Shown here piece after piece: positions 37,233 to 52,479 of a stretch of 64,000 bases of DNA. Position 1 is the first letter of the stretch; each line of letters starts with the position of its first letter. Position numbers and translations under genes: made by a program. The DNA is from Microbulbifer sp. Q7. GTDB taxonomy: Bacteria; Pseudomonadota; Gammaproteobacteria; Pseudomonadales; Cellvibrionaceae. The notes under the pieces are model-generated. The model was not told the DNA's origin. It searched no databases and saw nothing but the letters and a program-made list of their open reading frames with translations. The DNA lies in contig NZ_LROY01000002.1 in NCBI RefSeq assembly GCF_001639145.1, forward strand, positions 1 through 64,000. Reading direction: 5' to 3'.

Positions 37233-37907
37233 CTAGCGGCTGGCGGATTGAGGCGGTAACAAAAACTCCTGCAGTTGTGCCGCCATGCCTTTGCAGGCGT
37301 TGTTCTGTACCCGCGCAATCAGCGGAATCGGCACAACAATGGCGGGCATGTAGGAGGTGCCCTGGGCATCCGCGCTGATCTTCCCGGATAGCTCCTGGTC
37401 CCGGAAGTCCCACACGGCGGCCTCGTAATCCGATTCCTTGTCCCAGGTGCCGAAGCCAAAGCAGCCGGCCCCGGCGGTACCAATGGAGCAGCCGATGGAG
37501 CCGGCACTGGAGGTGGTCTCGGTAGAGCCATCAATCCAGACGATGTACTTCACCCCATATTTCGCCATGCGGTCGCGCACATCGGGAATGTCCATCAATT
37601 TGTCGAGGGACTTGATATGCATAGGTGCGGTGCGCGGTTCGAACCAGGGGTACAACGCATCCACAAATTGTCGCTCGGGAATGACGTTAACCCCCGCGCT
37701 GGGGTTGTGCAGGGTTTTTCCCACGCAGTCGATCAGGTCCGGCTCGGTTTCGTAGTCGCTGGAATGACGGCGGCCGAGAATCACCACAGAGTCGCCAACG
37801 GCGAGCTCGCCGGTGCTGCGCCGGTATTCATCGATCACCACGGTGGTACACCCGCTGGAAAACAGCGTCAGGACCGAAATCGAAAAAAGTGCGCTCAGGA
37901 ATTTCAC
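37233..37907 (-). CDS. Lipoprotein of unknown function
   Basis: 224 aa with a GTG start chosen because AAGGAGG lies 9 bases upstream. Lipobox FSSGC with Cys20. The mature part has a beta-rich GDSVVILGRRHSSDY segment, a conserved-looking PERQFVDALYPWF, a Gly/Cys-rich stretch (GSIGCSIGTAGAGCFGFGTW) that looks like a tight beta turn region, and a C-terminal NACKGMAAQLQEFL. The predicted site is the periplasmic face of a membrane. It is part of the minus-strand cluster; no family recognised. Confidence 0.78.
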   Translation of the reverse strand: MKFLSALFSISVLTLFSSGCTTVVIDEYRRSTGELAVGDSVVILGRRHSSDYETEPDLIDCVGKTLHNPSAGVNVIPERQFVDALYPWFEPRTAPMHIKSLDKLMDIPDVRDRMAKYGVKYIVWIDGSTETTSSAGSIGCSIGTAGAGCFGFGTWDKESDYEAAVWDFRDQELSGKISADAQGTSYMPAIVVPIPLIARVQNNACKGMAAQLQEFLLPPQSASR

Positions 37908-37977
37908 CAGTACATCCTCCTTGAGATTTCCGCGTACCGGGTACACGGACGGAATTTCCAGACTCCGCTGGAAACTA

Positions 37978-38631
37978 TTAGTCGCTACCTGTTTGCTTCA
38001 TGCTCAGGGCGCGTTGTTTGTCGGCGATGAGTGCCTGCAACTCAGGCACACGCTCAAAACCCGTATACAGGGTGGCCCCGGCATCGCGCAGCGCCACATT
38101 GATGGCCTGAGCCAGTGCCGCTTCCTGGGATTTCAGAAAGGCGGTAGGGGTTTTTCCGTAGGCGGTGATGACCCATTCTGCCACCGACTCACCCTGTTGG
38201 TTGTAGGCGTGCATGTCGTACTTGATCCACACTTCGAAAATGTTGACACGGGTTTCCCGGGGCATAGTGAATTGCAGTTCGCGCACCTCGGGGACAATCA
38301 CCAGGTCCAACCCCTGTGGGAGGTCGGACGGGTATTGCGCGAGGTTAATGGTTTCCTGGAACATGGAGCCCAGTACCGTTTCAAACAGGTTTCTCTGCGC
38401 GCGACCGGTGTCGATGTTCCACTCATCGCGATCATCCCGGTTTTCGCTATAGGTAAACTGCCGGAAATCATCACTCAAATAAACGCCGACAGTCAGAGGG
38501 TGGGGGTCGCCCACCGGTGCGGGGAACTCGCCATCCACCGACACCGTATGGGCACAGGCGGTCAGCAGACCAGCCAGCACTACCAAGGTGAAGGTTCGGA
38601 TCGTGCCAATTCCATTTAACAAGCGATTCAT
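37978..38631 (-). CDS. Lipoprotein of unknown function
   Basis: 217 aa. Lipobox LLTAC with Cys26. ATG at 38631 has GGGAG 7 bases upstream. The mature part reads as a mixed alpha/beta fold: PLTVGVYLSDDFRQFTY, GLDLVIVPEVRELQFTMP, and RVNIFEVWIKYDMHAYN, a layout reminiscent of LptE-like or TPR-less assembly lipoproteins, but no confident match. It lies 48 bp after the second vWA gene and is likely co-transcribed. Confidence 0.78.
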   Translation of the reverse strand: MNRLLNGIGTIRTFTLVVLAGLLTACAHTVSVDGEFPAPVGDPHPLTVGVYLSDDFRQFTYSENRDDRDEWNIDTGRAQRNLFETVLGSMFQETINLAQYPSDLPQGLDLVIVPEVRELQFTMPRETRVNIFEVWIKYDMHAYNQQGESVAEWVITAYGKTPTAFLKSQEAALAQAINVALRDAGATLYTGFERVPELQALIADKQRALSMKQTGSD

Positions 38632-38679
38632 GGTTTGCTCCCGGGTTTCTCCCAACCCAACGTCGTCTTTAGTTGCCTA

Positions 38680-39681
38680 TCAGCGAAAGTCATTCAGGCC
38701 CACAAAGGTGCCGCCATTGCGGTAGGTCAGTTCACGCATCAGGGCGGCAAAGCGCAGACCCGTGGTCTGCAGGTGTAGTGGGCGAGAGAACTGAATGGGG
38801 AAGCCGATCGCGTGAATGCGGACCATGCGCTGGTCCTCCCCGCGTTGCGCGTTCACGCGATCCACTGCCATCATGACGTTGCGGATGGACTTGCCGGTGA
38901 ATTCATCGCCGAGTACGTAAATACTGATTTTTTTGTTCGGATCGTAGAAGGTGCGTACCGCTTTCTGGATGCCTTCCACGGGGCTTGAATTACTGAACGG
39001 ATTCCATGAGCGGAGGCGGGACAGTACCGCGTCCCGACGCCCTGGGGTGTCGGGGATCCAGCGATTGCGATAGTTGGAAAACATATAGTCCCCCATATCG
39101 TTCATCACCTGGATACCTTTCACATTGGGGTACAGGTTCAGGGTGTTGACCATCTCCTGGATCATGCGATCCCAGCCGTAATTAAACATACTGCCCGAGG
39201 TGTCGATGATAAACAGGATGTATTCGCTATCCACTGGAATGCCACCAATGACATTGTTTTTACGCTGGTAATTTTCCCCGAGCAGCCGTTTCATTTCGTC
39301 GGTCATACTCTGCAGCGCAATCGTCAGCTCGCCCTTGAGTTTACCTTCCTCGCTTTCACTCTCGGTCTTGCGCGCATACTGAGCCTGCAGGGTTTCCAGT
39401 TCACCCTTCAGTTTAGCGATGCGCTTGGTTTCGATATCCAGCTGCTCTTTTTTGGCGTTCAGATCGCGGTTCAGTACGGAGGTTTCCCCGCGGATTTCCG
39501 CCAGCTGTTCCTGCAACTCCTGAACTTGGCCATCCAGATCCAGCTCGGCTTCCTCCAGCACGATGGGTTCCACCGTCTTGGCGATCATCAACAGCAGTAC
39601 GATGGCGCCAAACCCACAGCAGATGACGTCGAGGAACGAGATGCTGAACTCTTCTTGTTGCCGTTTGCTGCGTCTACTCAT
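38680..39681 (-). CDS. Membrane-anchored coiled-coil vWA protein (B)
   Basis: 333 aa. A basic N-terminus, then one TM segment (about 14-36) beginning SFLDVICCGFGAIVLL with Asp18 at the position of the proton-channel Asp of ExbD/TolR/MotB. A periplasmic coiled coil follows (about 45-130), then a von Willebrand A domain (about 150-333) with MIDAS DTSGS (Asp160). Its start overlaps the stop of the paralogous upstream gene by 4 bp. With the channel protein at 42163 it likely forms an ion-driven stator-like complex (inference). Confidence 0.82.
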   Translation of the reverse strand: MSRRSKRQQEEFSISFLDVICCGFGAIVLLLMIAKTVEPIVLEEAELDLDGQVQELQEQLAEIRGETSVLNRDLNAKKEQLDIETKRIAKLKGELETLQAQYARKTESESEEGKLKGELTIALQSMTDEMKRLLGENYQRKNNVIGGIPVDSEYILFIIDTSGSMFNYGWDRMIQEMVNTLNLYPNVKGIQVMNDMGDYMFSNYRNRWIPDTPGRRDAVLSRLRSWNPFSNSSPVEGIQKAVRTFYDPNKKISIYVLGDEFTGKSIRNVMMAVDRVNAQRGEDQRMVRIHAIGFPIQFSRPLHLQTTGLRFAALMRELTYRNGGTFVGLNDFR

Positions 39682-40760
39682 GGCCAGTCCTTGGAGGGTG
39701 CTAGGAATGAACCCTGGGTTTCCATAGCCAGTTTCCAGTATTCACTGGCGGCGAAGGGATCGCCTTCCATGGGAGCCAGGACCACATTGACGGGAATACT
39801 TTTGGGCAGGGCTTTTACCGCCTTGCGGAACAGCTTCAAGCGGTCCTTGCCGGAAATCGTATTGCCCCGAGGGGCCTTCATGCCCTGGGTGGGCAGCCCA
39901 TCGGTAATCAGGATGATGTTGTCGGGTAGCGGCGACATGCTGTTCACCGCATTGAAGATTCGCTCGAGACTGGTACCGTTCTCGGGCACGATGGTGTCAA
40001 GGGCCTTGATGGCATCGTCCATCTGATCGCGATCGTCCACGTTCAGCCAGCGATCCTCGGAGCCGACGAGGGCGGCGCGGAACTCGGTATTGAAGGTGTA
40101 AATCTGGTACTGGCTATCCTGCGGGAATTGCGACACCAGCCAGGAAACGGTCTGTTTGGCACGTCGCCACTTTTCGGTATCCCGCTTTACCGCATCGGAC
40201 ATGTTGCGCGTGCGAATTACCTTGATCAGCTCGTCGCCGAGCATGCTGGCAGAAGAGTCCAGCAGAATCAGGATGCGATCACCGCCCAAGCGCAGGCCGG
40301 TGAGGTATTGCCGGTCGCCATCGCCGACAAATTTGCGCACGTTGTTACCCAACTTTTTGTTTTCAGCCTCCAGCTGCTTCTTGGCCTGCTCCAGTTTCTT
40401 GAGCTTCTGTTGCAGGCGGGCAATGTCCATTTCGTCTGTGGTGCTGTCGACCTCAGCGATATTGCCTTTTACCTCTTCAATCTGCTCCATGATGCGTCGT
40501 GCCAGGCCCTGCACCGTGGCCAGTTCATCGCTGGTGGTGTCCAGGGTGTTGCGGGCCAGGACCAGGTGCTCTTGCCCGAACTGGACTTCCTCTTGCAGCA
40601 GGTTGACCTCGGCAGCCAGATCCTGGTTTTCCGCCTCGATATCGTGGTCGGAGCCGTGCTTGATGATCAGGAAGATCAATGCAACGGCACCGAATCCACA
40701 GGACATGATGTCCAGAAACGACAGGCTGAAGGCTGAGAACCGCCGGTTTTTACGCGCCAT
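39678..40760 (-). CDS. Membrane-anchored coiled-coil vWA protein (A)
   Basis: 360 aa, same architecture as the next gene. TM segment (about 12-35) opens SFLDIMSCGFGAVALIF with Asp17, followed by a long coiled coil (about 40-145) and a vWA domain (about 160-345) with MIDAS DSSAS (Asp168), a Thr-containing loop, and LITDGLP. The two proteins share the N-terminal S-F-L-D-x-x-x-C-G-F-G-A motif but little else in sequence, so this is an old duplication. The start overlaps the preceding gene by 11 bp, and the end overlaps the next by 4 bp: tight translational coupling. Confidence 0.82.
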   Translation of the reverse strand: MARKNRRFSAFSLSFLDIMSCGFGAVALIFLIIKHGSDHDIEAENQDLAAEVNLLQEEVQFGQEHLVLARNTLDTTSDELATVQGLARRIMEQIEEVKGNIAEVDSTTDEMDIARLQQKLKKLEQAKKQLEAENKKLGNNVRKFVGDGDRQYLTGLRLGGDRILILLDSSASMLGDELIKVIRTRNMSDAVKRDTEKWRRAKQTVSWLVSQFPQDSQYQIYTFNTEFRAALVGSEDRWLNVDDRDQMDDAIKALDTIVPENGTSLERIFNAVNSMSPLPDNIILITDGLPTQGMKAPRGNTISGKDRLKLFRKAVKALPKSIPVNVVLAPMEGDPFAASEYWKLAMETQGSFLAPSKDWP

Positions 40761-42054
40761 AATGTTCCACGCTGATCGCAGTAATTACGTCTTCAAGATT
40801 GGCCGCGCCGATGCGGTCACCTGCGGTGAGATTCACCGGCGCAGAAATTTCTTCACCGTTCAGCATCAGCTGCGCACCGGCATCCACGCGCAGTGCCAGG
40901 CGACCGGCGTGATTGGTGATGGTGGCGGCCGGGTGCGTGGGTGGCGTGGGCGTGATGTTGAGCTTGCCCTCCTGCCAGCTGACAAACAGCGGTTGCTGTG
41001 CGGCCAGGGCCCGATGGCCAAAGAGCAGGTGCGTTGCGCCAGCCTCCGCCGCAGCATTGACCTGTACGGCAACCTCGGTGGCCGGTGCCGCACTCAGCGC
41101 ATTGACGAGCCGCAGTTGCTCGCTTTCGCTGTGGATTTCCTGCCAGTGCTTTTCCGCCGCCTGTGCCACCGCGTTGTGCGGCAGCAGGTGTATACGCTCG
41201 GCCAGCTGCGCGCCCCCAGGAATTTCCGCCCAACGGTGCGAGACAAATACAACGCTGTTGGCTTCACTGAGGTTCTCAATCATGGCGCGAACCCGGGAGA
41301 GAATCGGTATGCTCGCGTCCTGCAGTTGTCGCAGGCTGACTTTGGCGGTGCGGTCATCGAGTTCCGCCATGACTTCGCCCTGGCGCATCGCGCGGGCGAT
41401 CCACTGTGGCAGCATGTCGTACAGCTGTTGCTCGGATTCTGCCGAGTGCAGCGGGTCAAACCGGCACTGCATGATGAAGGCATCGGTAAACATGCGGGCC
41501 CAGGCTTCCTGGAAGTGCTGGAGCCCTGCATCGGTTACGGTTTCCGCGATATCCAGTTCCGCCTGCTCGTGTACCACAACACGGCTTACCAGAGTCTGGT
41601 GTCGGTGCAGTTCGATATGCAGGTGTACACCCCGTGGAGCGCAGCTGCTGATACATGCGGCTGCGGCATCCACCAGAGAGATAGCGTTGAACGGGCTCTC
41701 TTTGATGACACCCAGCAGCAGGGCCAGCTGTTCACGGGTGAAGTTGCCGGGCACTGCGAGGGCGACCTCATCCGGCAGGTCGCATAGTTCGGCGATATGC
41801 TGGAGGTGGCAGAACGCCAGGTCCGCGTGATGGCGGCAGCCCGGGTTGTCGGACTTGACCGATTCGAGACTGAGTCGACGCCAGAACTGGTGGTTGATCT
41901 GTGTGGGGTGGCTGCGCGCACGCATCAAGGCGGCGGTGCCTGTGACAATTTCCTGATCATTGACAATGGCAACCCCCGGGCTTTCCAGCACTTCATTGTT
42001 GCCGACAAAAACCCGCAGACCGCAGTCGTTGATATCCAGTACACCCTTGCTCAT
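40750..42054 (-). CDS. Actin/Hsp70-fold-like protein with degenerate nucleotide loops
   Basis: 434 aa, cytoplasmic, no signal or TM. The start DINDCGLRVFVGNNEVLESPGVAI and GTAALMRARSHPTQINHQFW follow the Hsp70/MreB pattern (phosphate-1 strand-turn-strand, then the G-x-A-A and N-x-F elements), and SLVDAAAACISS resembles the EPTAAA helix. However, phosphate-1 lacks the Gly-Thr/Ser residues, and the place of phosphate-2 (HIELHRHQTLVSRV) has no glycines. The last 75 residues look beta-rich and FHA-like (LMLNGEEISAPVNLTAGDRIG). I infer a non-hydrolysing scaffold, with moderate doubt about the fold. Confidence 0.6.
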   Translation of the reverse strand: MSKGVLDINDCGLRVFVGNNEVLESPGVAIVNDQEIVTGTAALMRARSHPTQINHQFWRRLSLESVKSDNPGCRHHADLAFCHLQHIAELCDLPDEVALAVPGNFTREQLALLLGVIKESPFNAISLVDAAAACISSCAPRGVHLHIELHRHQTLVSRVVVHEQAELDIAETVTDAGLQHFQEAWARMFTDAFIMQCRFDPLHSAESEQQLYDMLPQWIARAMRQGEVMAELDDRTAKVSLRQLQDASIPILSRVRAMIENLSEANSVVFVSHRWAEIPGGAQLAERIHLLPHNAVAQAAEKHWQEIHSESEQLRLVNALSAAPATEVAVQVNAAAEAGATHLLFGHRALAAQQPLFVSWQEGKLNITPTPPTHPAATITNHAGRLALRVDAGAQLMLNGEEISAPVNLTAGDRIGAANLEDVITAISVEHYGA

Positions 42055-42162
42055 GGAAGCTCCTGTTTTCCCTGTTGCGGCTGGCCACTTCCCTGGTCAG
42101 CCTGCGTTATGCAGTGATTCGTGATCCGGACGCGTAACCGCGTGAATCTGGGCTGTTCTGCG

Positions 42163-42957
42163 TTAGCCCACTTTCAAGAAGCGCAGTAGTTTGTTGTCGC
42201 AATAATTCTGGGTGTCCAGCACCAGGCGTTCCTGCATGAGTTGCAGCTGGTGAGTGAAGAACATGATGACGATGCTGATGACCAGGGCGATAAAGGTGGA
42301 GTTGAACGCGACACCGAGGCTTACGGTCACCCCGGCTATGTCGCCTTCCACGGCGCGATGGGCCTGCGCTAGTGCTTCACCGATACCGCGCACCGTGCCG
42401 ATAAACCCGATAGAGGGGATCGCCCAGGTGATGTAGCGCACCATCGCCAGTTCTGAATCCAGCCTATCGCCTTCGGTATCACAGACCTCTTTGACCGAAT
42501 TGGATACAGCGGCCACATTGCGTGTGGAACCGAAGCGTTGCAATGCAGTGAGCAGGGCGCGAGGTAGCAGGAAATTACGCTCTTCCTCTGGTAACGCCTG
42601 TATCGGTCGCGACAGGTCGCGGGCGTCTTCCGGCAGAATGGGTGTTCCTTCGCTCACGTTCAGTAGTGCCTGGTCCAGCAGTTTGCGTTCGCGAAAGCCG
42701 CGCCGCGCTTTCAGTCCCATGATGGCCATGGCCCACAGCATGAGTACGAAGCAGGCTTCCTGTTCGTAGTCGCGCATCACGATGTAGATCGATCGCTGTT
42801 GTATGTAGGTCTCGCCGGCTTCTTCCCGTGCCATTTGCTCGGCGATCAAGGCATCGGCGTTGGGGCGGATGATGGCCACATAGATGGCATGTACCAGGAT
42901 GATCGCCCCGAGTAGGGCAAACAGCTGGAAGACGAAATCTGAAGACTTGAATTTCAT
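42163..42957 (-). CDS. MotA/TolQ/ExbB proton channel family protein
   Basis: 264 aa. A first TM at about 7-29, a second at about 72-90, and two C-terminal TMs (about 168-190, 212-236). The family core is YITWAIPSIGFIGTVRGIGEAL (compare TolQ APYIGLLGTVWGIM) and SLGVAFNSTFIALVISIVIMFF, which keep the channel Thr residues. ATG at 42957 follows GGGAAAA; an upstream ATG would add 11 residues. No ExbD or TolR follows; instead come the actin-like gene and two vWA proteins with an ExbD-like TM Asp. These are the probable partners. Confidence 0.9.
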   Translation of the reverse strand: MKFKSSDFVFQLFALLGAIILVHAIYVAIIRPNADALIAEQMAREEAGETYIQQRSIYIVMRDYEQEACFVLMLWAMAIMGLKARRGFRERKLLDQALLNVSEGTPILPEDARDLSRPIQALPEEERNFLLPRALLTALQRFGSTRNVAAVSNSVKEVCDTEGDRLDSELAMVRYITWAIPSIGFIGTVRGIGEALAQAHRAVEGDIAGVTVSLGVAFNSTFIALVISIVIMFFTHQLQLMQERLVLDTQNYCDNKLLRFLKVG

Positions 42958-43046
42958 GGGTTTTCCCGCTTTTTTGTAGGGCCATTCCATTGGCGATGGG
43001 CCCGGATATTGCTCTGACTGTGCCTGTTGAATATGCGATCTTGGGT

Positions 43047-43355
43047 TTAGATGTCCACCGGGTAGGAGACCGAGAGGTCTTCCGAAATTTCTTCCGAGGC
43101 TTCATAGCCATCGGCGCTTTCCGCACTCTGTGCCTTGATCTTGGGTGTTTTTTTACTGACCGGTTTCGGTGCGGGTTCCGCAGCCTTGACGCTGACCGGT
43201 TGTGCGCTCGCTTCCGCCTTACTGGTGTCGCTATCACTGGCTTCGCTTGCGGAGTCAGCGGCGACCTGAGCGGCTACCGAACCAGCAAGTGCGGTCAGTA
43301 GTGCGAAAGCCAATACCTGGTAGCGGGAGCGGGTAAAACACTGTGTAAGTTGCAT
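43047..43355 (-). CDS. Small secreted Ser/Ala/Lys-rich protein
   Basis: 102 aa. A classic signal peptide ends about GSVAAQ (residue 30). The mature 70 residues are low-complexity (Ala, Ser, Glu, Lys, Pro) and end in a possibly ordered acidic tail, EEISEDLSVSYPVDI. It lies between the PEGA-FGE gene and the channel gene, 46 and 89 bp from them. GAGG precedes the ATG. It may be a periplasmic linker peptide of the complex; no homologue recognised. Confidence 0.65.
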   Translation of the reverse strand: MQLTQCFTRSRYQVLAFALLTALAGSVAAQVAADSASEASDSDTSKAEASAQPVSVKAAEPAPKPVSKKTPKIKAQSAESADGYEASEEISEDLSVSYPVDI

Positions 43356-43401
43356 CGCTGTGCCTCGTCAGTAATTGCGTGATTCCACGCAGGCCATGAC
43401 T

Positions 43402-45492
43402 TCAGTTCACCCACCGGGCTACGCGGAACCCGATATCGTTGCGTGCCTCGGCACCATAGTCCCGGTACGACAAACGTAATTCTGTGAGCCCAGCGTGTTT
43501 CCAGCTGGAGCCCCGAACCACGTGATAGTCGCCTTCCTGGGGGCCCACCGGGTTCTCTTCCCGTTTGAGGGACAAACCGGTGCCAATGGTGTAGAGATCG
43601 TGAATCCATTCAGAGACATTGCCGCCCATATCGAACAGGCCAGTGTGGTTGGGTGCGAAGCTGGCTACGGGGGCGGTGGCCGGATAGCGGTCGTTGTAGG
43701 TGCGAAGTACGGCTGGGACTATCTGCCCCGCGCTGCTATCGGCGTAATTTCCGGAGTTCTTGCCCACCGGCAGCGCATTGCCCCAGGGGAACTTGCGCAT
43801 GGCACCGCGTTCGAAGCGCGCGGCCCAGGCCCACTCCGCTTCGGTCGGCATACGGTACCCATTTGCACTTGCGTCAAAGCCCACTATGCGTCCGCGTTCG
43901 CTGCGGTACACCTCTTTGAGCCCGTCCCGTGCACTTAGCCAGTTGCAAAACAGGGCGGCATCATTCCAGCTGATATTCACCACCGGCAGGTTATCGTTAT
44001 CCAGGCTCACCCCATTGGCATGGCTGGAATTGTGCATCCGCTGGTAACGGCGATATTCGCGGTTGGTCACTTCGGTCGCGCCGATATAGAACGGCCGGGT
44101 GAGTGCAATCTTGCGCATGACTTCATTGGCGCGGCGGCCCTGTTCACGGCGGGACGACCCCATGGTGAACTGTGCATTGGGACGCATCAGTAACATTTTG
44201 CCGCCGGCACCGTGGGTGATTTCAGCGGGTATGCCACTCCAGCGTGCCTGCTCACCGGTGAGCAGTACGGCCCGTACCGACTGTTTCAGCTTGCTGGATG
44301 GCACGATGGTGGTGGAGTAGTCCTCATACCCGGGTTTGCGCACGGTAATTCTGTGGCTGCGGGTGGGCAGGGTGAAGGTCTGGCCGGCAACACCGGCCAG
44401 TTTGCCGTCGATAAATACCTGCGCTTCTGCTGGATTACTGGTGATGGAAACCTTGCCGAATACGGCGGTCAGCTCCACGTTCATATCCCGCTGGTCACCC
44501 GCGCGGACATCGACGGTACGCTCGACGGTACTGTATCCATCGAGGAAAAAACGCAACTCATGTCGGCTGTTGGAGGCCAGTTCCAGATCGATGGGCGCCT
44601 GCCCGCGGTACTCGCCATTGACGGTGATACTGGCACCCGGCGGATTGGTCACCACGCGCAATGTGCCGTCGGCAGCGTTGAGGTCCACCGTGGCCAGGGT
44701 CTGGTCGACCCCCGCGGTGACGGGTACCTGGATTTGTGCGGTCTTGTGATCCGGCAGGGAAATATCTACCAGTCGATCTCCCTGCACCAGCTCGGCGGTC
44801 AGCGGGGTGGTGCCCAGAACCCGGCCTTCCACACTGACGGTTGCGCCTGCCGGGTTACTGGTAATGTACACGTTGGCCCAGGCCGGGCGCAGTGTTGCAG
44901 AGAGCGTTTGTGTGTTGTCCAGTCCTTCAATCTCAACTTCCTTGCTGAAGGGCAGGTAGCGCTCGGTGAGAATGGTGATGCGCTTGCGGCCGGCGGGAAT
45001 GGACGCGGCCAGACCGTCCGTGCTGCTCACTTCCGCACCGTTCACCAGGACGCGCACGGGTACCGGTGGGTCGGTTACCACCTGCAGGTGGCCCGGCAAG
45101 CGTTCCAGCTTCACTGCGTGGCGACTGTTGCTGTCGCTGCTCACTTCGACCTCACCAGTGCGCGGGAGATAGCCGGTGGCACTGATGGTGTAGTTGTAGT
45201 GACCGGGTAAAACCAGATGGCCATCGCCCAGGGGGAGGGCGAGACCACTGACCGATACGTCGGCATCGGCAGGCTGTGTTTCAAAAATGAGTGAGCGGGC
45301 GACCAGCAGGTAGACCAGCATCAGGGCGCCCAGTAGCAGGCAGCTGGCGACCACAATTGCTTTCGGGGTAAGTAGCAGTTTTCTGCCACCGGTGGTAACC
45401 GGGGCGGGGGTGAATCCGATGGGTTGAATGACGGATGCATCTTCGCTTGCCGGCTCGCTGTCGCGAACGGGTACCGCTTCCTTGGCTGTCAT
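43402..45492 (-). CDS. Inner-membrane PEGA-repeat protein with FGE-sulfatase-like domain
   Basis: 696 aa. A cytoplasmic tail (1-45) carries DASVIQPIGF. One TM spans about 46-66. The periplasmic part has about five PEGA-type beta repeats (about 70-415), with signatures such as VYITSNPAGATVSVEGRVLGTTPL and ITSNPAEAQVFIDGK. A formylglycine-enzyme-like domain spans about 430-696 (FTMGSS, YRMPTEAEWAWAARF, GLFDMGGNVSEWIHD, VVRGSSW). After RGSSW the two catalytic Cys of true FGE are absent (KHAGLTELRLSYRDYG), so it should not make formylglycine. Likely a structural or ligand-binding module. Confidence 0.88.
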   Translation of the reverse strand: MTAKEAVPVRDSEPASEDASVIQPIGFTPAPVTTGGRKLLLTPKAIVVASCLLLGALMLVYLLVARSLIFETQPADADVSVSGLALPLGDGHLVLPGHYNYTISATGYLPRTGEVEVSSDSNSRHAVKLERLPGHLQVVTDPPVPVRVLVNGAEVSSTDGLAASIPAGRKRITILTERYLPFSKEVEIEGLDNTQTLSATLRPAWANVYITSNPAGATVSVEGRVLGTTPLTAELVQGDRLVDISLPDHKTAQIQVPVTAGVDQTLATVDLNAADGTLRVVTNPPGASITVNGEYRGQAPIDLELASNSRHELRFFLDGYSTVERTVDVRAGDQRDMNVELTAVFGKVSITSNPAEAQVFIDGKLAGVAGQTFTLPTRSHRITVRKPGYEDYSTTIVPSSKLKQSVRAVLLTGEQARWSGIPAEITHGAGGKMLLMRPNAQFTMGSSRREQGRRANEVMRKIALTRPFYIGATEVTNREYRRYQRMHNSSHANGVSLDNDNLPVVNISWNDAALFCNWLSARDGLKEVYRSERGRIVGFDASANGYRMPTEAEWAWAARFERGAMRKFPWGNALPVGKNSGNYADSSAGQIVPAVLRTYNDRYPATAPVASFAPNHTGLFDMGGNVSEWIHDLYTIGTGLSLKREENPVGPQEGDYHVVRGSSWKHAGLTELRLSYRDYGAEARNDIGFRVARWVN

Positions 45493-45940
45493 TTATGATG
45501 TCCTGTTACTGCGTACTTATTGATTTTTACGTAGCTGGAATCTCTGCTGCCGGGCGGTGTTGTTGCATGCTTGTCACATTCTTGTCGCATGCGTTACCTG
45601 TCCGGCCCGGGGCTTGCTGCCAGAGACAAAGCCGCGCATTTCAGCTTAGCCCGCTCTCGCGCTTGCAGCCGGAGCGGGGGCGTTTTTGGCGTAGCTTTCT
45701 CCGTTTTACCGATACCAGGACGACAATTTCGTCCATTGCCCGTCACCGGCTCGGGGCCAGCGCGCAAGGGCGAATTTCGGTTGCGGAAGGTGGGCGGGTA
45801 GTCAGAATATTCTGGTGCGACCCGCGGACAGCCTGGCCGTAGGAGCGGCCAAAGCTGCGTCAAAAACGGCTACGTAAAATTCGGATGATTTCCGACGTCG
45901 CTTAGTTTTTGATCTGCCCGCGGGCAAAGGGTTTCACCGA
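45493..45940 (-). other. Internal gap in the minus-strand cluster
   Basis: About 450 bp between the TPR-PEGA and PEGA-FGE genes, with no gene on either strand that I credit. It holds a REP-like hairpin GGCCG-TAGGAG-CGGCC (45835-45850) and three tandem 11-mers (45558-45590) just before the PEGA-FGE start. It probably separates two transcripts. Confidence 0.6.
45558..45590 (-). promoter_or_regulatory. Three tandem 11-bp direct repeats upstream of the PEGA-FGE gene
   Basis: On the minus strand three consecutive 11-mers read ATGCGACAAGA, then ATGTGACAAGC, then ATGCAACAACA, ending 66 bp before the ATG. An 11-bp helical period with a conserved GACAAG-type core is the arrangement bound by OmpR/PhoB-family response regulators. 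The regulator is unknown. Confidence 0.5.
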
Positions 45941-47506
45941 TCAGGATTTATTGGCGCTGTTAATTTTTTCTTCGCACTCGATGGTCACTACGGGAGACTC
46001 CGAGGACGGATCCACGATCAGTTCGCGGCGCACATCCCGATAGCCTTGGCGTGTGCCCACCACGGTATAGCGCCCGGGTTTCAGTGCAATTTCCCGTTCT
46101 GAGAAATTCCCCAGCCTGCCTACGTGGTAAATGGTCACGTTGGTGCTGGCATCGGACTGCAGCAGCACGGTAATCGGGATCAGGGACTTCGTGAGAGCCG
46201 ATTCCAGTGCCTCAATCTGTCCCGTGAGCCGTGGGGTACTGGTTCTGAGTGCGCGGGCATCGGCCAGTACCTTACGCGCGTACTGATTGCGTTTGCTCTG
46301 CCCGAGTGTGAGGGGGTCCTCCAGTAATTCCTGCAGCTGGTCATCCAGTTTCGCGCGCGCCTGCGAGCGGGCCTTGCCGGTAAGTGCTTCTACCAGGCTG
46401 CTGTCTTCGGCGATTAAGGCACCATATTTTTCCGCGGCCTTGTGCCATTGCTCGCTCTGTTCGTGCTTGGCGGCGGTGGCAAACAGTCGGTCGATGCGCG
46501 CCTTGGCGAGCCCGTTTTCCGCCTGGGTAATACCGATGTTCGGGTCTCTGGCATCCGGCTTCAGCGTGCGAGCCTTAACGAAGTGGGTCCTGGCCTTGGT
46601 GAATTCATCGGCGGCGATAGCGGCATAACCAGCGGACATGGCCTCGCTGTAGTCGCGTTCGAGAATGGCTGCGTTGACCGCTGGCAGAAGTGCTTTGGCG
46701 GGGGCCGTTTCCGGGTCCAGGTTCAGGGCGGTTTCCAGTGCCTGCTTCGCGGTGTCGAGGGCATTTGCTTCAAAGGCCTCTTTGCCCGCGACCACATGCG
46801 GCCACACTTCCGGCAACTGTTCCGCGCGGGCTTTGCCCGCGACCCCGCGCGGGTGGTCCTCGGAGATCGTCAGGGCGAGGTCAAAGGCTTTGTGGGCGGC
46901 TTCGGCATCACCGGCATCCAGCGCGCTATTCCCGTCTGCCAGATGTTTTTCGATTCGTTCTGGAATGCTATCCCGCACTGCCTGCATACCGGACAGCGCC
47001 TGGCGGTATTGCTCCAGCGCCTGCATGAATTTGCGCTGGCGGTAGATGCCATCGGCATTTTCGGCGAGCGTACGTGCGGCGAAATAGTCCTCGGCGGCCC
47101 AGGTTTCCACCTTCCGCTCCAGCAGTTCTTCCTGCAGCTGCAGAATCTCCTGCAATATCTTCTGCACTTCACGGCGTTGGGCAGCAATTTCCGCCTCGGT
47201 AAAGGGGGATTCCTGGACTTGCTTTACGCTGGCTTTTGCCGGTGTGCTGGCGGCCGTGGTGGTGGCGGCGGGAATGACTGGCTTCTCAACCATCTGGGGA
47301 AGTACCCAGAAGACGCCGACCAGAGCTGCCAGCATGCCGCCGCCGAGGATAACCGGGGCCAGCTTGCCGCTGCCTGACGGCTTTTTGTCTGCCGTATGCG
47401 CCGCCGCCGGATCTCCCGGCTGCTCGCCGTTGGCGGTGCCTCCGAAGGAGAAATCGGCAGGCTGAATGATGGACTGGTCTTCCGGTGATGGATCGCGGTG
47501 TTGCAT
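45941..47506 (-). CDS. Inner-membrane TPR protein with PEGA-like C-terminus
   Basis: 521 aa. The cytoplasmic tail (1-47) contains DQSIIQPADFSF, then one TM (about 49-70). The periplasmic part has a coiled coil (about 95-125, QKILQEILQLQEELLERK) and a long array of TPR-like helices (about 130-420) with repeated Ala-rich A-x-x-x-F/Y units. A PEGA-like beta domain ends the protein (about 445-510: NVTIYHVGRLGNFSEREIALKPGRYTVVGTRQGYRDVRRELIV). It shares the tail motif with the PEGA-FGE protein, so both may dock to one cytoplasmic partner. Confidence 0.85.
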   Translation of the reverse strand: MQHRDPSPEDQSIIQPADFSFGGTANGEQPGDPAAAHTADKKPSGSGKLAPVILGGGMLAALVGVFWVLPQMVEKPVIPAATTTAASTPAKASVKQVQESPFTEAEIAAQRREVQKILQEILQLQEELLERKVETWAAEDYFAARTLAENADGIYRQRKFMQALEQYRQALSGMQAVRDSIPERIEKHLADGNSALDAGDAEAAHKAFDLALTISEDHPRGVAGKARAEQLPEVWPHVVAGKEAFEANALDTAKQALETALNLDPETAPAKALLPAVNAAILERDYSEAMSAGYAAIAADEFTKARTHFVKARTLKPDARDPNIGITQAENGLAKARIDRLFATAAKHEQSEQWHKAAEKYGALIAEDSSLVEALTGKARSQARAKLDDQLQELLEDPLTLGQSKRNQYARKVLADARALRTSTPRLTGQIEALESALTKSLIPITVLLQSDASTNVTIYHVGRLGNFSEREIALKPGRYTVVGTRQGYRDVRRELIVDPSSESPVVTIECEEKINSANKS

Positions 47507-47613
47507 GGTAATTCCGCTATGTTTGCTGTTATTTTCGGTTGCCGGCCAGCGCTAAAAATTGAGTGGCACGGCCGGCCAGGTAGAGACGAATCTGGAACAC
47601 GATGGTGAGCGTG

Positions 47614-48810
47614 TTAAATATCGCTCATGCCCCCGGTTTCCACTTCGTAAATTTCCTTGAGCAGTTCGCGCCACTGGCGGTACTGGTTTTCCACAGAACC
47701 GGAAAGCGTTACGGTGCGATCTTCCAGCTCAACGATGCGCGGTTCTACCTCGGCTTCCATTGAGTCACCGAGTTCCTGCAGCGCCTCGATGTGCATTTTG
47801 GCTTCGGAGCGGCGGTCGAACCCGCTTTTCACCAGGTAACCACCACCGGCCACGGCCACGTTGCCAGCCTGGCGCGCTGCGCCACCACCGGCACCGGCAG
47901 CCGCAATACCACCCACGATGGCGGCGACGCCCATGATGGTGTTATTGCGCGCTTTGCGTTTCAGTTCACGCATCTGCTTGACCTCTTCATAACTCATGGC
48001 ACGCCACTCCTGATAGGGCGTCTCCATGCTTTTTACAAAGGTGTCGTAGTAGCCCTGCAGCGTATCGACAAACAGATAGTCGCGTTCGCGGACCCGTCGA
48101 ATACGCATCAACATCGGGTCGTTGTCTGCGGGCAGTGCACTGAGCTGGTAGAGGCCATCGTCGTCCTGCACCAGGTAGCGATCAAACGCACCGGGCGAAA
48201 AGCTTTGCGCAAATTTGATTTCAGAAATCGTGCGCAGCTCGGCGATGTATTGACTGGACAGGCGCTGTCGGTAGGTCAGCATGTCATTGGAAATACGGTT
48301 GTAGATACCCTGGAACGCATCGCCTTCGGTCGGGTGTTTGCGATCGTACGCATAGTGGGAGGCGTGCTCGGTGTATTGCTTGGTGAACCACACCTGACCG
48401 CGGGAATCCGTCACGGTAACGTCTACCGTCAGGGTTTCACCGTCGGACTTCACGATGGTGCCCGCCACGGTGACATCGATATTGGTGCGCTCGCTGGGAA
48501 TCACGCGCACCGCGCCCCAGCCCTGGCTCGACTGCAATGCATCGGCGAGCGTGACCGCAAGGTAGCGGGATTCGGCGCGGCGTAATTCCGGAAACACCAG
48601 CTCGTCTTCCTCTGGCTCTTCTTCCTGGTCAAGCCCGGTATTGAATTGCACGATGCCGACATCCAGCAGCCGGTTTTCGGCGATGGCCGCGTCTTCAACC
48701 GTGAGCGGCGTATAAGCGGTCGTGCGTACCTCGGTAGTGGTGCAGCCCGCCAGTGTCAGCAGGCCCATGACCAGCGTGCACAGGGTTGTGCGTGTGTGTG
48801 AGAAAAACAT
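47614..48810 (-). CDS. Large lipoprotein of unknown function
   Basis: 398 aa. Lipobox LTLAGC with Cys23; GGGAGAG precedes the ATG. Residues about 45-180 form an alpha/beta region (LLDVGIVQFNTGLDQ, YLAVTLADALQSSQGWGAVRVIPS, VTVAGTIVKSDGETLTVDVTVTDSRGQVWF) similar in style to CsgG- or TolB-N-like surface-assembly lipoproteins. A later hydrophobic Gly/Ala stretch (about 305-335, GVAAIVGGIAAAGAGGGAA) could insert into or cross a membrane. The C-terminus is helical. It is in the minus-strand cluster, 30 bp from the Ser-rich gene. Confidence 0.8.
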   Translation of the reverse strand: MFFSHTRTTLCTLVMGLLTLAGCTTTEVRTTAYTPLTVEDAAIAENRLLDVGIVQFNTGLDQEEEPEEDELVFPELRRAESRYLAVTLADALQSSQGWGAVRVIPSERTNIDVTVAGTIVKSDGETLTVDVTVTDSRGQVWFTKQYTEHASHYAYDRKHPTEGDAFQGIYNRISNDMLTYRQRLSSQYIAELRTISEIKFAQSFSPGAFDRYLVQDDDGLYQLSALPADNDPMLMRIRRVRERDYLFVDTLQGYYDTFVKSMETPYQEWRAMSYEEVKQMRELKRKARNNTIMGVAAIVGGIAAAGAGGGAARQAGNVAVAGGGYLVKSGFDRRSEAKMHIEALQELGDSMEAEVEPRIVELEDRTVTLSGSVENQYRQWRELLKEIYEVETGGMSDI

Positions 48811-48840
48811 GTCACTACTCTCCCTGATGAATGTTCATCT

Positions 48841-50181
48841 TCATTTCTGTGATTTTTTATATTTCCGATACTCTTCCCAGAGTCGCTCCTGCAATTCCGG
48901 ATCAGCCTCGCGCATGGCGGCCTCGCGAATCTGCCGGGCAACTACATCGTCATCGTCACCGCTGGGGATGTCTGCCGGAACCACGGCGGCGGTGTTGGTG
49001 TGGTTGTACTCACCTTTGCGGCCCCTGGTTGGCAGCCCCGGTCCGGTGGCCTGCCCGCTGGAATTATTTTGCTCCGGTCCGCTGCCACCCTCGCCGCCGC
49101 CAGAGGGCGGAGGGGCAGGCAGTTCGGCCTCGGCAGACTGGATCAGGTCTTCCAGAGACTCGCCGGGCGGTACCTCGTTCTCTGCCGCTTCCTGTTCTTC
49201 CGCCGAGGCGGGGCGATTGCGCACGTAATCCCGCTCGCGCAGGATCATGCCGTCGTAACTGGCCATCGTGGATTCAAACTGCCCTTCGAGATCCGCTACC
49301 CGCTCTGCAGAACTGGCGGGAGCCTCGTTGGGTGCCGGGTTGCCCCCGCTGGCCGGGCTCCCGGCACTGGAAGCGCTGGCGGGCGCACCGCCACCGCCGG
49401 GTTGTCCGCTCGCAGATGCACTAGCCTGTGCGCCACCCTGGGCGCCGGAAGGGGAACTGCTGGATGCGCTACTGGGGGCGCCACTGCTGGACGCACTGGC
49501 AGAGGCGCTGCTGCTGGAGGCACTACTGCTGGAGGCGCTGGAAGAACTGGATGAGGCGCTGCTCGCGGTCTGCTGCTCTTCGGAAAAATCGATCTCGTCC
49601 GGTGGCTCGCCCTCGCTGTTGGAGGAGGGGTCTGGTGGCATGCGGGTTTCCTGCGGGCGCTCATCGGAGTCGCTGTACACCGGCGTCGACGGGTTTCTGC
49701 TGGCCGTGGGGTCTTCAGCGCTGCTGCTGGCCTGGCGCGAACGGCGATCGGATTCTTCGCCGGAGTCTGAGGCGGTACTGGATTGCTCACTCGAGCGGTC
49801 CGCTGACTCAATACTGGGGAAGGAGGTATTCGGCTGCGCAGGGCTGCTGGCGGTGGACATGCTCGGGCTGCGGCTGCTGCTGGGTGAGCTGGGCGACGGC
49901 ATACTGCTGGCCGTGGACGGGCTCGGCTTCGACTTGCTGGATGACGAGCTTGACGACTGCGACTGTGATTGGGACTGCGACTGCGACTGTGAAGCACTGG
50001 ACTGTGACTTCTGCTGTGGCTGCGCCGGCGGTTGCTGTTGCGTCTGCTGGTTTTTGCAGCCGCTTATCACCGCCGACAATACCACCACCGACGCCAGCGA
50101 TTGCCAGCGCCATCCAGTGGCGCAATTATTTGTCTTGCCGGTTTTTTGCGTAAACCGCTGAGCGATCGTCCGTAATGCCAT
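48841..50181 (-). CDS. Serine-rich low-complexity lipoprotein
   Basis: 446 aa. Signal with lipobox VISGC (Cys42). Residues about 45-300 are almost purely Ser/Ala/Pro/Gln (runs of SQSQS and SSSSAS) and are probably disordered, long enough to bridge the periplasm. The last 150 residues are more regular: a coiled-coil-prone VADLEGQFESTMASYDGMILRERDYV, then QIREAAMREADPELQERLWEEYRKYKK. AGGAGA precedes the ATG. Codon use remains G+C-rich and matches its neighbours. Probably an elastic tether of the cluster's complex (inference). Confidence 0.75.
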   Translation of the reverse strand: MALRTIAQRFTQKTGKTNNCATGWRWQSLASVVVLSAVISGCKNQQTQQQPPAQPQQKSQSSASQSQSQSQSQSQSSSSSSSKSKPSPSTASSMPSPSSPSSSRSPSMSTASSPAQPNTSFPSIESADRSSEQSSTASDSGEESDRRSRQASSSAEDPTASRNPSTPVYSDSDERPQETRMPPDPSSNSEGEPPDEIDFSEEQQTASSASSSSSSASSSSASSSSASASASSSGAPSSASSSSPSGAQGGAQASASASGQPGGGGAPASASSAGSPASGGNPAPNEAPASSAERVADLEGQFESTMASYDGMILRERDYVRNRPASAEEQEAAENEVPPGESLEDLIQSAEAELPAPPPSGGGEGGSGPEQNNSSGQATGPGLPTRGRKGEYNHTNTAAVVPADIPSGDDDDVVARQIREAAMREADPELQERLWEEYRKYKKSQK

Positions 50182-50371
50182 GAGCTATCTCCTGATGCGT
50201 TCACGGGCCGCAGCGAAATCGCGGCGACCCGTCTTGCTCCTTGTCTGTTCGACAGCTTTCTTTCAGCGGGGTTTGATTGGCAGAACCGATTTGCTGCCAG
50301 TTTTTCCCAATGCTGAAATCAAACTTACTTCGCTACATCAGTCGAACACGGTGTGTTGTTTCCTCAATTTT

Positions 50372-51682
50372 TCAATCGAATACGAATCGTTGCACGATGC
50401 CGGTGGTGGCCACCGGTTCACCGTTCTCGAACCGGGGGCGGAACTTGGCCCGTTTGAGCACGTTGCGTACCCGCGAACGGATGCTCACTTTGTCTTCCGG
50501 TCTGGCACTTAAAATCTGAATGTTGCGCGCCTTGCCGAACGCCGTCACATCATAAGAAACGGTGACATAGGAATTGGCCAGAGCCTCACGATCTTCGTCC
50601 AGCAGCGGCAGAGTCGGCAGTGCCGCCGGGCGGCCGAAGATCTCATCAATTTCTTCATTGGTTGCGCCGTTGTCCCACAGTGCCTGATAGGCTTCGCCAT
50701 AGGTCTCGCGGGCGGAATGCCATTTGTTGAAGATCATGTACCAGTCACCCAGCTCCACTTTGGCCTTTGCCGATGCCGCCGGTGGCGAAGACGGGTTCTT
50801 CTGGTAGACGTCCATGATTTTGGTGATTGCGGTTTTACCGGAGCTGAAACTGTTCATCCGGTAGTGATCCAGCTGCGCGCGACGCTCTGGCGTGCTGTTG
50901 CCGCTACCGGCAAAGCCCGCATTAATGACAATGGCTTCCTGAGGTTCACCGGTGTAGGTGGCCAGGTAATAATTTGTCGCCTTGAGGCCACGCAATGCCT
51001 CGACCATGCGCAAGTCATTGGCACCAAAGTTTTGCGAAATAATATCGACGGCCAGGGCGTAGAGGTTGGTGGCATTGATCAGGTGCTCAAACAGCGTCGC
51101 TCCTTTCTCATCGATATAGGCCTGCAGGTGCCAGTTGCTCAACTGGTTGATGATCGGCAGCATGCGCGGATCTTTTTCACCGTAGTTTTTGGCATGTAAC
51201 CAGAACAGATATTCGTGGTTGTCGTTGGCCTCTTCCCATTGATTGAGGGCGATTTGACTCTCAATCATACGTTCGATCATCGGCACCTGATTGAGTGAGT
51301 AGAGCCCTTCATTCACCCGGTTGATCAGCATGGCACGGCGAAATTCGGAGATGGCCTCTTCGTGATTCCCGCTGCGCTGCAGAGCGCTGGCGAGCCCCAT
51401 TAATTGTTCGTCGATACCGGCACCGTAGGCGCCGTGCTCGGCTTCCATGTCTTCAATGCGCCGGCGATAATCCTCGGCCGCTTTCGAGGGGCGGAGCTGT
51501 CGCTTTGGTTTTTCCAGCGGTTTGGATGCCGCTTCTATATAAGCTGCTGGAGGAGCCTTGGCGTTGTCGAGGGCCGAGTCTAGGGCGGAGATTTCTTCCG
51601 CCGTAACAGAGCCACACAGCAGAGCTGAGGCTGTAAACATCAAGCCGATAGCAATTGCGTTGCTGGTATCTGTCTGTGTCAC
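50372..51682 (-). CDS. Periplasmic TPR-like protein with TonB C-terminal-like domain
   Basis: 436 aa using GTG at 51682, which gives a normal signal peptide ending about GSVTAEE; an in-frame ATG at 51730 would put 16 unlikely residues before it. A proline/lysine linker is followed by helical TPR-like repeats (about 75-250: MGLASALQRSGNHEEAISEFRRAM). The last 70 residues resemble a TonB C-terminal domain (SYVTVSYDVTAFGKARNIQIL, KRAKFRPRFENGEPVATTGIVQRFVF). It has no membrane anchor. It is the first gene of the cluster. Confidence 0.78.
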   Translation of the reverse strand: MTQTDTSNAIAIGLMFTASALLCGSVTAEEISALDSALDNAKAPPAAYIEAASKPLEKPKRQLRPSKAAEDYRRRIEDMEAEHGAYGAGIDEQLMGLASALQRSGNHEEAISEFRRAMLINRVNEGLYSLNQVPMIERMIESQIALNQWEEANDNHEYLFWLHAKNYGEKDPRMLPIINQLSNWHLQAYIDEKGATLFEHLINATNLYALAVDIISQNFGANDLRMVEALRGLKATNYYLATYTGEPQEAIVINAGFAGSGNSTPERRAQLDHYRMNSFSSGKTAITKIMDVYQKNPSSPPAASAKAKVELGDWYMIFNKWHSARETYGEAYQALWDNGATNEEIDEIFGRPAALPTLPLLDEDREALANSYVTVSYDVTAFGKARNIQILSARPEDKVSIRSRVRNVLKRAKFRPRFENGEPVATTGIVQRFVFD

Positions 51683-52479
51683 GGTTGAACCACTTCCATT
51701 GCATGTTGTTCCTGACCCGTCTGCAGCCATTTGGGGGCTGGGCTGACGAGCTCGAAATCCGTGCGACGCGATGATCGTCCGGTGCGCACTTGCGTGTGTG
51801 CGCTAACCCCGGTTGCACGGAACCTCTCTCCCTGACGTGTGGTTCGTTCACTTTCCTGCCGGTTACCCGGTGTGCTGTCGATTGTCGACGCTGGACTCTG
51901 GTGGCGCGGGAATTTATTGGCCGTAAATTGGCACTGCGTTCCCTTGCAATTGGCGTTCACCGTCCATGTAGTTTCAGTATAGCCAACGAATTTTCGCCCC
52001 CTGCTTCCACAGGTGTGCTGTGACGCCACTGTTCTGAACGACTCTTCTGCACCTTCGTCACGCGGGCTTCCGCGCGCTCCTGCCTGGGTCCTTTTAAACG
52101 GCGGTAGCGTGACCTGTACGGGGGTTCAAAGAGTCTGGCAGGCGGGGAAAAGATGGGTGGGAATTCTCAGAAAACCCGGTGCCAATAATTTGCCGCGCAA
52201 TGCAAATTGTGACGGCGCTTCGCTCGCGTGGCGTTGCAGGCAAACTAACTTGTTGGGTGGGGCGCCCCCACATCCGGTGATGGCGCACGGCGCGACCGTG
52301 AGCCCCATGGCAGTCGCCGATTTTCACCTGTGGAAAAGGGTTGTCCTAATTCTGGCCGGTTTTTCCCTTTCGTGTTGCGTGATACCAATACCCTTTGGTC
52401 GCAATATTTGGAATAAGGGCTGCGTGGGGCCATAATCCGCGGGTTTGACGAATTGTGTACTTTCTAGTGGGAGCGCTTT
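51683..52479. other. Divergent intergenic region before ilvE
   Basis: About 800 bp between the cluster's first gene (minus) and ilvE (plus). Open frames of up to 140 codons here have no ribosome site or plausible domain. The part at 52260-52480 carries the ilvE promoter. It should also hold the promoter of the minus-strand cluster, which I cannot pinpoint. Confidence 0.5.
52408..52436 (+). promoter_or_regulatory. Sigma-70-type promoter of ilvE
   Basis: TTGGAA (52408-52413) and CATAAT (52431-52436) are separated by exactly 17 bp and lie 44 bp upstream of the ilvE GTG. Confidence 0.6.

Follow-up and report, generated by a model that had tools for sequence, protein, structure and literature searches.

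Gene content of the locus

The window, a 64,000-nucleotide stretch of the Microbulbifer sp. Q7 genome (contig NZ_LROY01000002.1, positions 1–64,000), contains at 37233–51730 twelve consecutive minus-strand genes, including those of a MotA/TolQ/ExbB-type channel and two vWA proteins, whose products probably form an ion-driven machine spanning the cell envelope. A preliminary description, made from the DNA sequence alone, had reported these twelve genes and a thirteenth for an adjoining M48 lipoprotein, and searches of the window for open reading frames (ORFs) and protein families verified them at that place and on that strand. The start of the first gene, given there as 51682, was revised to an ATG further upstream, at 51730. 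The reported overlaps of gene pairs were recovered, vWA1 overlapping its upstream neighbor by 11 nt and vWA2 overlapping vWA1 by 4 nt, as were the four lipoproteins, which, like the M48 protein, carry lipobox-like signal peptides as judged by eye. The PEGA, FGE-sulfatase, TPR and M48 domains were also found, PEGA and FGE-sulfatase well above the Pfam cut-off. The genes are listed in order of transcription, with two shorter segments placed after the genes that contain them.

50372–51730 (−): TPR protein with a signal peptide and a TonB C-terminal-like domain, 452 residues from the ATG at 51730 (Pfam TPR_12 and TonB_C, both below cut-off; profile against the Protein Data Bank, PDB)
48841–50181 (−): lipoprotein of 446 residues, low in complexity and rich in Ser and Pro over a long stretch, strongly conserved in its C-terminal segment (sequence, C-terminal conservation, core gene)
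47614–48810 (−): lipoprotein with a FlgT/PelC/CsgG/TolB-N-type α/β domain, a predicted long helical hairpin and a small C-terminal domain, 398 residues
45941–47506 (−): TPR-PEGA-like inner-membrane protein, 521 residues (Pfam TPR_2, 27.2 bits; PEGA-like end by eye)
43402–45492 (−): PEGA and FGE-like inner-membrane protein (PEGA-FGE), 696 residues (Pfam PEGA, 168 bits over 4 stretches; FGE, 155 bits)
45406–45429 (−): short cytoplasmic motif IQPIGFTP of the preceding protein, a possible docking site for the Hsp70-FHA protein (pattern counts across loci)
43047–43355 (−): small secreted protein, 102 residues, whose highly conserved C-terminal tail ends in PVDI or PIDI
42163–42990 (−): MotA/TolQ/ExbB-type channel, 275 residues, or 264 from the Met codon at 42957 (PF01618; Thr in GTVRGIG and FNST)
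40750–42054 (−): Hsp70-like actin-fold protein with a degenerate C-terminal FHA domain, 434 residues (AlphaFold2, Foldseek; FHA by profile)
39678–40760 (−): vWA1, with a membrane helix containing Asp17, a coiled coil and a vWA domain with intact DxSxS, 360 residues
40653–40727 (−): transmembrane helix region of vWA1, residues 12–36 (in 19 aligned sequences the Asp and most residues around it are invariant)
38680–39681 (−): vWA2, with a membrane helix containing Asp18, a coiled coil and a vWA-like domain with DTSGS, 333 residues
37978–38655 (−): lipoprotein LP225, without Pfam match, 225 residues from a TTG, with the Met codon 38631 as the likely start
37233–37946 (−): lipoprotein LP237, without Pfam match, 237 residues from a GTG; likely start codon at 37907
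35736–37187 (−): M48 metalloprotease lipoprotein, a lineage-restricted partner (PF01435, 130 bits)

Conservation of the gene set

The twelve-gene set is real and widely conserved. Named genomes were scanned with a vWA1 alignment, the best 80 of 294 relatives were kept, and family models then placed the genes. A locus was regarded as complete when it extended at least 9 kb upstream of vWA1 and at least 3.2 kb downstream of it, which retained 26 of 27 loci from Microbulbifer, 38 of 53 from other named Gammaproteobacteria, 12 of 31 from further Gammaproteobacteria, two of six from the non-gammaproteobacterial family f211 and 34 of 40 from one gammaproteobacterial order in which a Ser/Thr kinase is commonly attached to the TPR-PEGA protein (hereafter the kinase order); locus L246 was left out of the counts. 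The genes present share order and strand in all complete Microbulbifer (26/26) and other named gammaproteobacterial loci (38/38); the full complement of twelve was found in 23 of the former and 30 of the latter. Ten of the 12 complete further gammaproteobacterial loci are collinear and the other two, L180 and L181, have the channel gene alone moved behind vWA2; seven genes occur in order in both complete f211 loci. Given these collinearity counts, the gene set is not a product of chance. The preliminary description had proposed a comparison with other genomes, where neighborhoods might break the set into unrelated pieces; the set withstood this comparison, though several accessory genes are lineage-limited.

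The seven genes form a core that comprises the Ser-rich lipoprotein, the 398-residue lipoprotein, TPR-PEGA, PEGA-FGE, the channel, vWA1 and vWA2. It is intact in 51 of the 52 complete non-Microbulbifer loci (38/38 other named, 11/12 further gammaproteobacterial and 2/2 f211), the sole miss being the 398-residue lipoprotein in L181, and in 31 of the 34 complete kinase-order loci. The remaining three, L213, L222 and L223, miss core genes in the fetched stretch, and longer reads located those of L222 and L223 further upstream. The Hsp70-FHA, small secreted, TonB-C-like, LP225, LP237 and M48 genes are less general than the core. Among complete loci, the small secreted protein was detected in 38/38 of the named non-Microbulbifer ones, and the M48 gene in 26/26 Microbulbifer, 34/38 other named, 4/12 further gammaproteobacterial and 0/2 f211 loci.

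These genes might also encode co-regulated but separate envelope modules (the vWA motor, the FGE/PEGA/TPR pair and the lipoproteins) that form no single complex. Several genes have been lost independently, the channel gene follows vWA2 in L180 and L181, and in G802 and G842 PEGA-FGE and the channel gene lie some kilobases apart, as such an arrangement would allow. However, the constancy of the seven-gene core outside Microbulbifer argues against this, and we consider separate modules quite improbable. Some observations do weigh against a single unit. The loci are related by descent and their counts are non-independent; the Hsp70-FHA gene is absent from 5/38 other named, 3/12 further gammaproteobacterial and 2/2 f211 complete loci; and the TonB-C-like, LP225, LP237 and M48 genes are lineage-limited. 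Because of these absences and restrictions, not all twelve genes can be regarded as encoding one obligate complex.

The surroundings of the loci vary. When 389 flanking ORFs of 73 loci were clustered and three families annotated, no functional hint from neighbors was seen. The most frequent families, all on the downstream side, were an AMP-binding enzyme (13 of the 73 loci), a sodium:dicarboxylate symporter (12 loci) and a metallo-beta-lactamase-fold protein (11 loci).

Probable motor core and envelope partners

The assignment of the channel to the MotA/TolQ/ExbB family, made in the preliminary description, agrees with its Pfam match (MotA_ExbB, PF01618, 51.5 bits, cut-off 22.9), and vWA1 matches VWA_2 with 29.1 bits (cut-off 27). 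Both vWA proteins start with a membrane helix of the form FLDxxxCGFGAxxL, and the channel-type Asp noted earlier in the two proteins recurs in 151/152 loci for each, counted over loci whose best vWA1 and vWA2 hits fell on separate ORFs (five loci with both hits on one ORF were left out). L198, a fragment, and L176, a mis-framed ORF, account for the two misses. A pattern search of the channel found GTVRGIG in 151/153 loci, L192 and L217 missing the pattern, and FNST in 153/153; we take the Thr residues of these motifs to be the equivalents of TolQ T145 and T178. In the aligned sequences of vWA1 and vWA2 alike, the DxSxS motif of the metal site is intact. About 110 residues separate the membrane helix from the vWA head, with profiles that match PDB coiled coils weakly, and the length of this spacer in vWA1 varies with that in vWA2 (r 0.73 over 66 loci, uncorrected for descent). 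Because the channel Thr residues and the membrane-helix Asp of both vWA proteins are conserved, the core is likely to be a proton-driven 5:2 motor, as judged from sequence. Several scores count against this assignment. vWA2 matches VWA_2 with 17.2 bits, below the cut-off of 27; the NCBIfam matches of the channel are weak (tolQ, 26.5 bits against a cut-off of 221); and no PDB chain matched the channel profile at E 0.01, so that channel homology rests on Pfam and the weak NCBIfam matches. The vWA profiles matched the PDB weakly, via the coiled coils and one integrin stretch. In the f211 vWA1 genes (L166–L171), which encode the Asp, no ATG, GTG or TTG precedes the helix and the apparent start is at an upstream CTG or other rare codon.

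A motor core of this kind has already been predicted in print. A computational study (Mol Biol Evol 2025, PMC12204202), the only paper among the matches listed with both TolQ and vWA terms in number, describes a TolQ-like channel beside a heterologous vWA pair with an Asp in the membrane helix and no TolR/ExbD, presents AlphaFold3 models in which the Asp and Thr residues come together, and refers to such systems as yet to be discovered. The window set resembles this TPH-vWA/TolQ-like motor in the channel adjoining a heterologous vWA pair, the helix Asp, the channel Thr and, within the window, the lack of a syntenic TolR/ExbD; the genes of the published figure start from Idiomarina. Section 8 of that article mentions no PEGA-FGE, Hsp70-FHA, lipoproteins or kinase with the vWA family, and the terms kinase, FHA domain, PEGA, formylglycine and Hsp70 were not found in its main text. 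Passages of PMC12505986 and PMC9389320 contain no von Willebrand or vWA terms. The full machine and the kinase-FHA link were not found in the literature searched, which excluded most subscription papers and preprints. The system had been called undescribed in the preliminary description. This was half right: the channel with its heterologous vWA pair, the Asp and the missing TolR/ExbD appear in passages of PMC12204202, whereas the other parts were not found there. The remainder of the machine and the kinase-based switch of some relatives thus look undescribed. New in this analysis are the Hsp70-like and FHA identity of one protein, the FlgT/PelC/CsgG/TolB-N-like lipoprotein and the Ser/Thr kinase on TPR-PEGA in one order.

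The channel family and the TonB-C-like domain are features that a variant of Tol-Pal, Ton, the flagellar stator or Zorya would have. The TPR protein matches TonB_C with 21.6 bits, below the Pfam cut-off of 24.6, and its profile matches PDB TonB2 (2k9k) with E 1.4e-9; the earlier statement that TonB is missing holds for a complete TonB but not for this C-terminal-like domain, which here sits on a TPR protein and not on an anchored Pro-rich TonB. Unlike Ton, the set has no ExbD, for which no match was found within 37–52 kb of the window. It shares with TolQRA-TolB-Pal a motor driven by proton-motive force, the Asp/Thr site, outer-membrane targets and, in the 398-residue lipoprotein, a TolB N-terminal-like fold. 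However, no TolR/ExbD, OmpA or TolB match occurs in the set, TolA and Pal are likewise missing by Pfam, as previously noted for TolA, TolB and Pal, and elsewhere in the genome, outside the operon, lie one TolB_N gene and eight ExbD matches. The channel's NCBIfam match to ZorA is very weak (12.1 bits against a cut-off of 500). None of the thirteen proteins has a Pfam domain corresponding to the OmpA-like domain of ZorB or to the nuclease and helicase partners of Zorya, whose absence had been reported before and is borne out by PADLOC for ten of the thirteen proteins. That the set is a variant of any of these systems is extremely unlikely. Zorya or another defense role was also rejected as a separate candidate: PADLOC gave nothing for the channel, and the only ZorA match was that of the vWA2 coiled coil, E 0.009; PADLOC matches fell mostly within coiled coils.

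On the periplasmic side, the fold of the 398-residue lipoprotein resembles FlgT, PelC, CsgG and TolB-N, among the list of folds compared, and a family outside that list may fit as well. A Foldseek search with this protein gave no match at E 0.001 (best 0.0012), which weakens the fold assignment. The FGE block of PEGA-FGE that was compared, which we take to be the active site, contains Cys in 0/51 aligned sequences; the active site of a formylglycine-generating enzyme has a cysteine pair. PEGA-FGE appears to lack the formylglycine-generating cysteine, as expected for a binding module. LP225 and LP237 gave no Pfam match, and their profiles gave no PDB match of note.

These folds also suit a motor that energizes export or assembly of protein, lipoprotein or polysaccharide at the outer membrane, as a functional analogue of the type IX GldLM motor under its GldK/GldN ring. 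Among NCBIfam families the FGE part scores highest with GldK (124 bits against a cut-off of 350), CsgG and PelC are secretion components, and the cysteine-free FGE block would fit a binding module. GldLM-GldKN, which serves type IX secretion and gliding, likewise has a motor partner that spans the periplasm and a component of FGE fold; here, however, the motor partner ends in a vWA domain, the FGE protein is anchored N-terminally in the inner membrane, and the phylum is another. A Pfam outer-membrane barrel domain was found in 0/13 proteins, the flanking clusters included no such hint among their three annotated families, the GldK score is below cut-off and a common fold is no proof of function. 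GldL, GldM and GldN were not listed by NCBIfam at E 0.1 for ten of the thirteen proteins (sequence families only). Such an export or assembly motor is possible, though rather unlikely.

Our preferred reading is that the operon encodes one trans-envelope machine run on the proton (or sodium) gradient, in which the vWA pair is moved and outer-membrane lipoproteins are acted on; we hold this to be probable, with some reserve. A pentamer of the TolQ-like channel would enclose two vWA membrane helices, most probably one from each of vWA1 and vWA2, and ions passing the Asp/Thr site would move this pair. With a length of about 110 residues, or ~16 nm if helical throughout, the coiled coils could bring the vWA heads past the peptidoglycan toward the outer membrane, where they may act on lipoproteins, chiefly the 398-residue one with the fold of the ring-forming FlgT, PelC and CsgG. 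TPR-PEGA and PEGA-FGE would be inner-membrane scaffolds with periplasmic binding domains, and on the cytoplasmic side the Hsp70-like/FHA protein may dock on PEGA-FGE. The gene set, its conservation, the predicted folds and the kinase-FHA coupling come from the sequences themselves, whereas assembly, rotation, force, docking and gating are all proposed here. For a physiological role, the favored candidates are export at the outer membrane and its maintenance. The machine coupled to proton-motive force that the preliminary description envisaged thus gains indirect support from the vWA Asp, the channel Thr, the conserved gene set and the outer-membrane-type lipoprotein fold. With the parts listed and the core residues named, a direct test by deletions and point mutants is possible in Microbulbifer.

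The system is very common in one order. vWA1 was matched in 30/370 sampled genomes of the class (23/273 genera, own genome and one weak match included), in 12/397 sampled genomes of the phylum, including seven of one non-gammaproteobacterial genus of which one is weak, and in 96/117 sampled genomes (42/51 genera) of the kinase order, for which two near-identical samplings were made and their counts not summed. Few motors driven by proton-motive force are known to extend to the outer membrane, namely Tol, Ton, GldLM and Agl. Since vWA1 is matched so widely in that order and in the class, a further one would fill a substantial gap. The channel is present in 36/37 Microbulbifer genomes, own included, the lone exception being 80% complete, and the system is kept even in the 1.3–1.5 Mb genomes of the kinase-order family f267. 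Three of these (G803, G815 and G825; 1.3–1.4 Mb, 88–92% complete) keep the system and gave no TolB_N match (0/3), which could reflect incompleteness. A general replacement of Tol-Pal was considered and set aside, as TolB_N is present in 13/13 tested genomes outside f267. G799 and G811 of family f263 have four vWA matches, not two, the additional ones forming a second, divergent vWA pair on other contigs.

Kinase-FHA coupling, a candidate docking motif and neighboring genes

The cytoplasmic scaffold, previously described as actin-fold-like, is borne out by fold prediction and can be specified as an Hsp70-like protein with an FHA domain. The AlphaFold2 model of the 434-residue protein has a pLDDT of 93.6 and an Hsp70-type fold, with DnaK as best Foldseek match (E 5.3e-16), and profiles place an FHA-like domain at the C-terminus. 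In the window this FHA lacks the phosphothreonine-reader pattern and is degenerate. No kinase lies in the window operon; the genome has seven kinases over cut-off, all outside it.

In the kinase order, TPR-PEGA has a Pkinase domain at its N-terminus in G205 (105.8 bits) and in G072 (102.3 bits; cut-off 31.7). When the TPR portion of the G205 protein served as query, PF00069 was present in 113 of the best 120 of 1320 matches, in a length window that favors fused proteins. From this order 40 loci were taken, with longer reads of two. The counts cover all loci in which the Hsp70-FHA gene and the TPR start were readable, and an FHA was called canonical when it contained S-x-x-H and S-x-(Y/N/F/H)-(G/N)-(T/S), a pattern widened after three kinase loci had first scored degenerate owing to a His. 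A canonical, phosphothreonine-type FHA occurs in 31/31 fused-kinase loci (29/29 before two longer reads were added), in 4/4 loci with a kinase gene directly upstream of TPR-PEGA, and in 0/79 loci without a kinase in the fetched stretch, the latter including Microbulbifer. All kinase-fused loci come from one order and the events are not independent. Set aside from this tally were two short Hsp70-FHA ORFs and 14 loci in which the TPR start was absent or short, three of them with a canonical FHA and 11 without; longer reads showed two of the three to be kinase-fused. Also outside the three classes are L227, with a canonical FHA and a kinase gene elsewhere in the locus, and L113, with a kinase elsewhere and no canonical FHA. 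An HRDxKxxN-type pattern is recognizable in 24 of 29 fused kinases and DFG in 22, and in L226 and L228 the match covers only about half of the kinase model; some fused kinases may, by their sequences, be inactive. Within the order, L206 and L207 have no kinase and a degenerate FHA, L209 has no kinase and a 348-residue protein without the FHA end, and the kinase-less L224 and L225 have no Hsp70-FHA gene; these five look like further losses. The N-terminus of the 670-residue TPR protein of L206 (G795, 3582–5594), beside the degenerate FHA protein, resembles by eye a shortened kinase remnant. A PP2C phosphatase–Ser/Thr kinase fusion is encoded at 6990–8768 (−) of L186, ~18 kb past the operon.

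Many kinase-order relatives also have an FHA-like domain at the N-terminus of PEGA-FGE. When this domain was isolated, four of five cases had FHA as best Pfam hit (E 0.003–0.12, below cut-off) and one had the YscD domain, which is of FHA fold, and comparison with the profile of Hsp70-FHA proteins gave a probability of 84%. Among PEGA-FGE proteins of more than 600 residues the domain is present in 42 loci, 26 of which also have the kinase, and absent from 97.

A short motif in the cytoplasmic N-terminus of PEGA-FGE follows the presence of the Hsp70-FHA gene. Over the 88 loci up to L185 (27 Microbulbifer, 61 others) in which vWA1, PEGA-FGE, the channel and the membrane helix were found, the pattern [IVL]x[PA]x(x)[FY]xP, IQPIGFTP in the window, occurs in 71/76 loci with the gene (26/27 Microbulbifer, 45/49 others) and in 0/12 without it; the mean for shuffled sequences was 0.86 of 76. 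Two Colwellia loci without the gene also lack the motif and two others have both, and L187 and L190 have the gene without the strict pattern. The motif is a candidate docking site for the Hsp70-FHA protein, a lead and not a test. Two facts diminish its weight: the pattern was defined on the same data that it describes, and it occurs in only 2/29 kinase-fused loci, most of which carry the FHA-like domain on PEGA-FGE instead.

The kinase, FHA, FGE-like and vWA domains and the lipoproteins found together in one order could also mark a system that is mainly an envelope-state sensor, in which PEGA, FGE, TPR and vWA domains read stress, the kinase and FHA signal inward as in type VI secretion, and the channel provides conformational input. 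In the type VI threonine phosphorylation pathway (PpkA, Fha, TagR), PpkA contains a vWA and TagR an FGE domain. The pathway likewise has a membrane Ser/Thr kinase, an FHA reader and a lipoprotein, but it regulates a contractile system and has no ion channel, and type VI families are absent from the Pfam matches of the thirteen proteins. According to two articles, PpkA and Fha link events in the envelope with a machine of the inner membrane (PMC12133291, PMC3953482). Against a sensor, the window and the relatives sampled outside the one order retain the channel Thr and the vWA Asp with no kinase on TPR-PEGA, and the conserved set has no response regulator. Such a sensor seems unlikely.

Within the trans-envelope machine favored here, the kinase on TPR-PEGA of the kinase order would probably phosphorylate a Thr read by the FHA domain, and the machine would thereby be switched. 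We tentatively suggest, at somewhat less than even chances, that motor coupling is switched by Ser/Thr phosphorylation, with the kinase in the machine's own TPR-PEGA scaffold and the pseudo-Hsp70/FHA protein as a cytoplasmic clutch on PEGA-FGE; the switch would be very common in one gammaproteobacterial order, and the kinase and the FHA binding site would have been lost together elsewhere, including the window. The Microbulbifer version would then work without the phospho-switch and seems to retain a phosphorylation-independent dock. The kinase-FHA pattern leads to a specific prediction on the gating of such motors.

Other genes of the window include a 7TMR-DISM diguanylate cyclase gene adjoining the M48 gene (33782–35725, +), a solute-binding/transglycosylase protein (57492–59903, −) and an Rnf-Nqr subunit gene (61427–62137, −). 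An ExbD/TolR gene (89 bits; 30953–31378, +) lies near an MGS-domain gene and a tryptophan dioxygenase, and the genome list shows no MotA/TolQ/ExbB match within 10 kb of it. A tRNA-Ala predicted antisense within the Ser/Pro-rich lipoprotein gene (49313–49401, +) is probably a false call from repetitive sequence.

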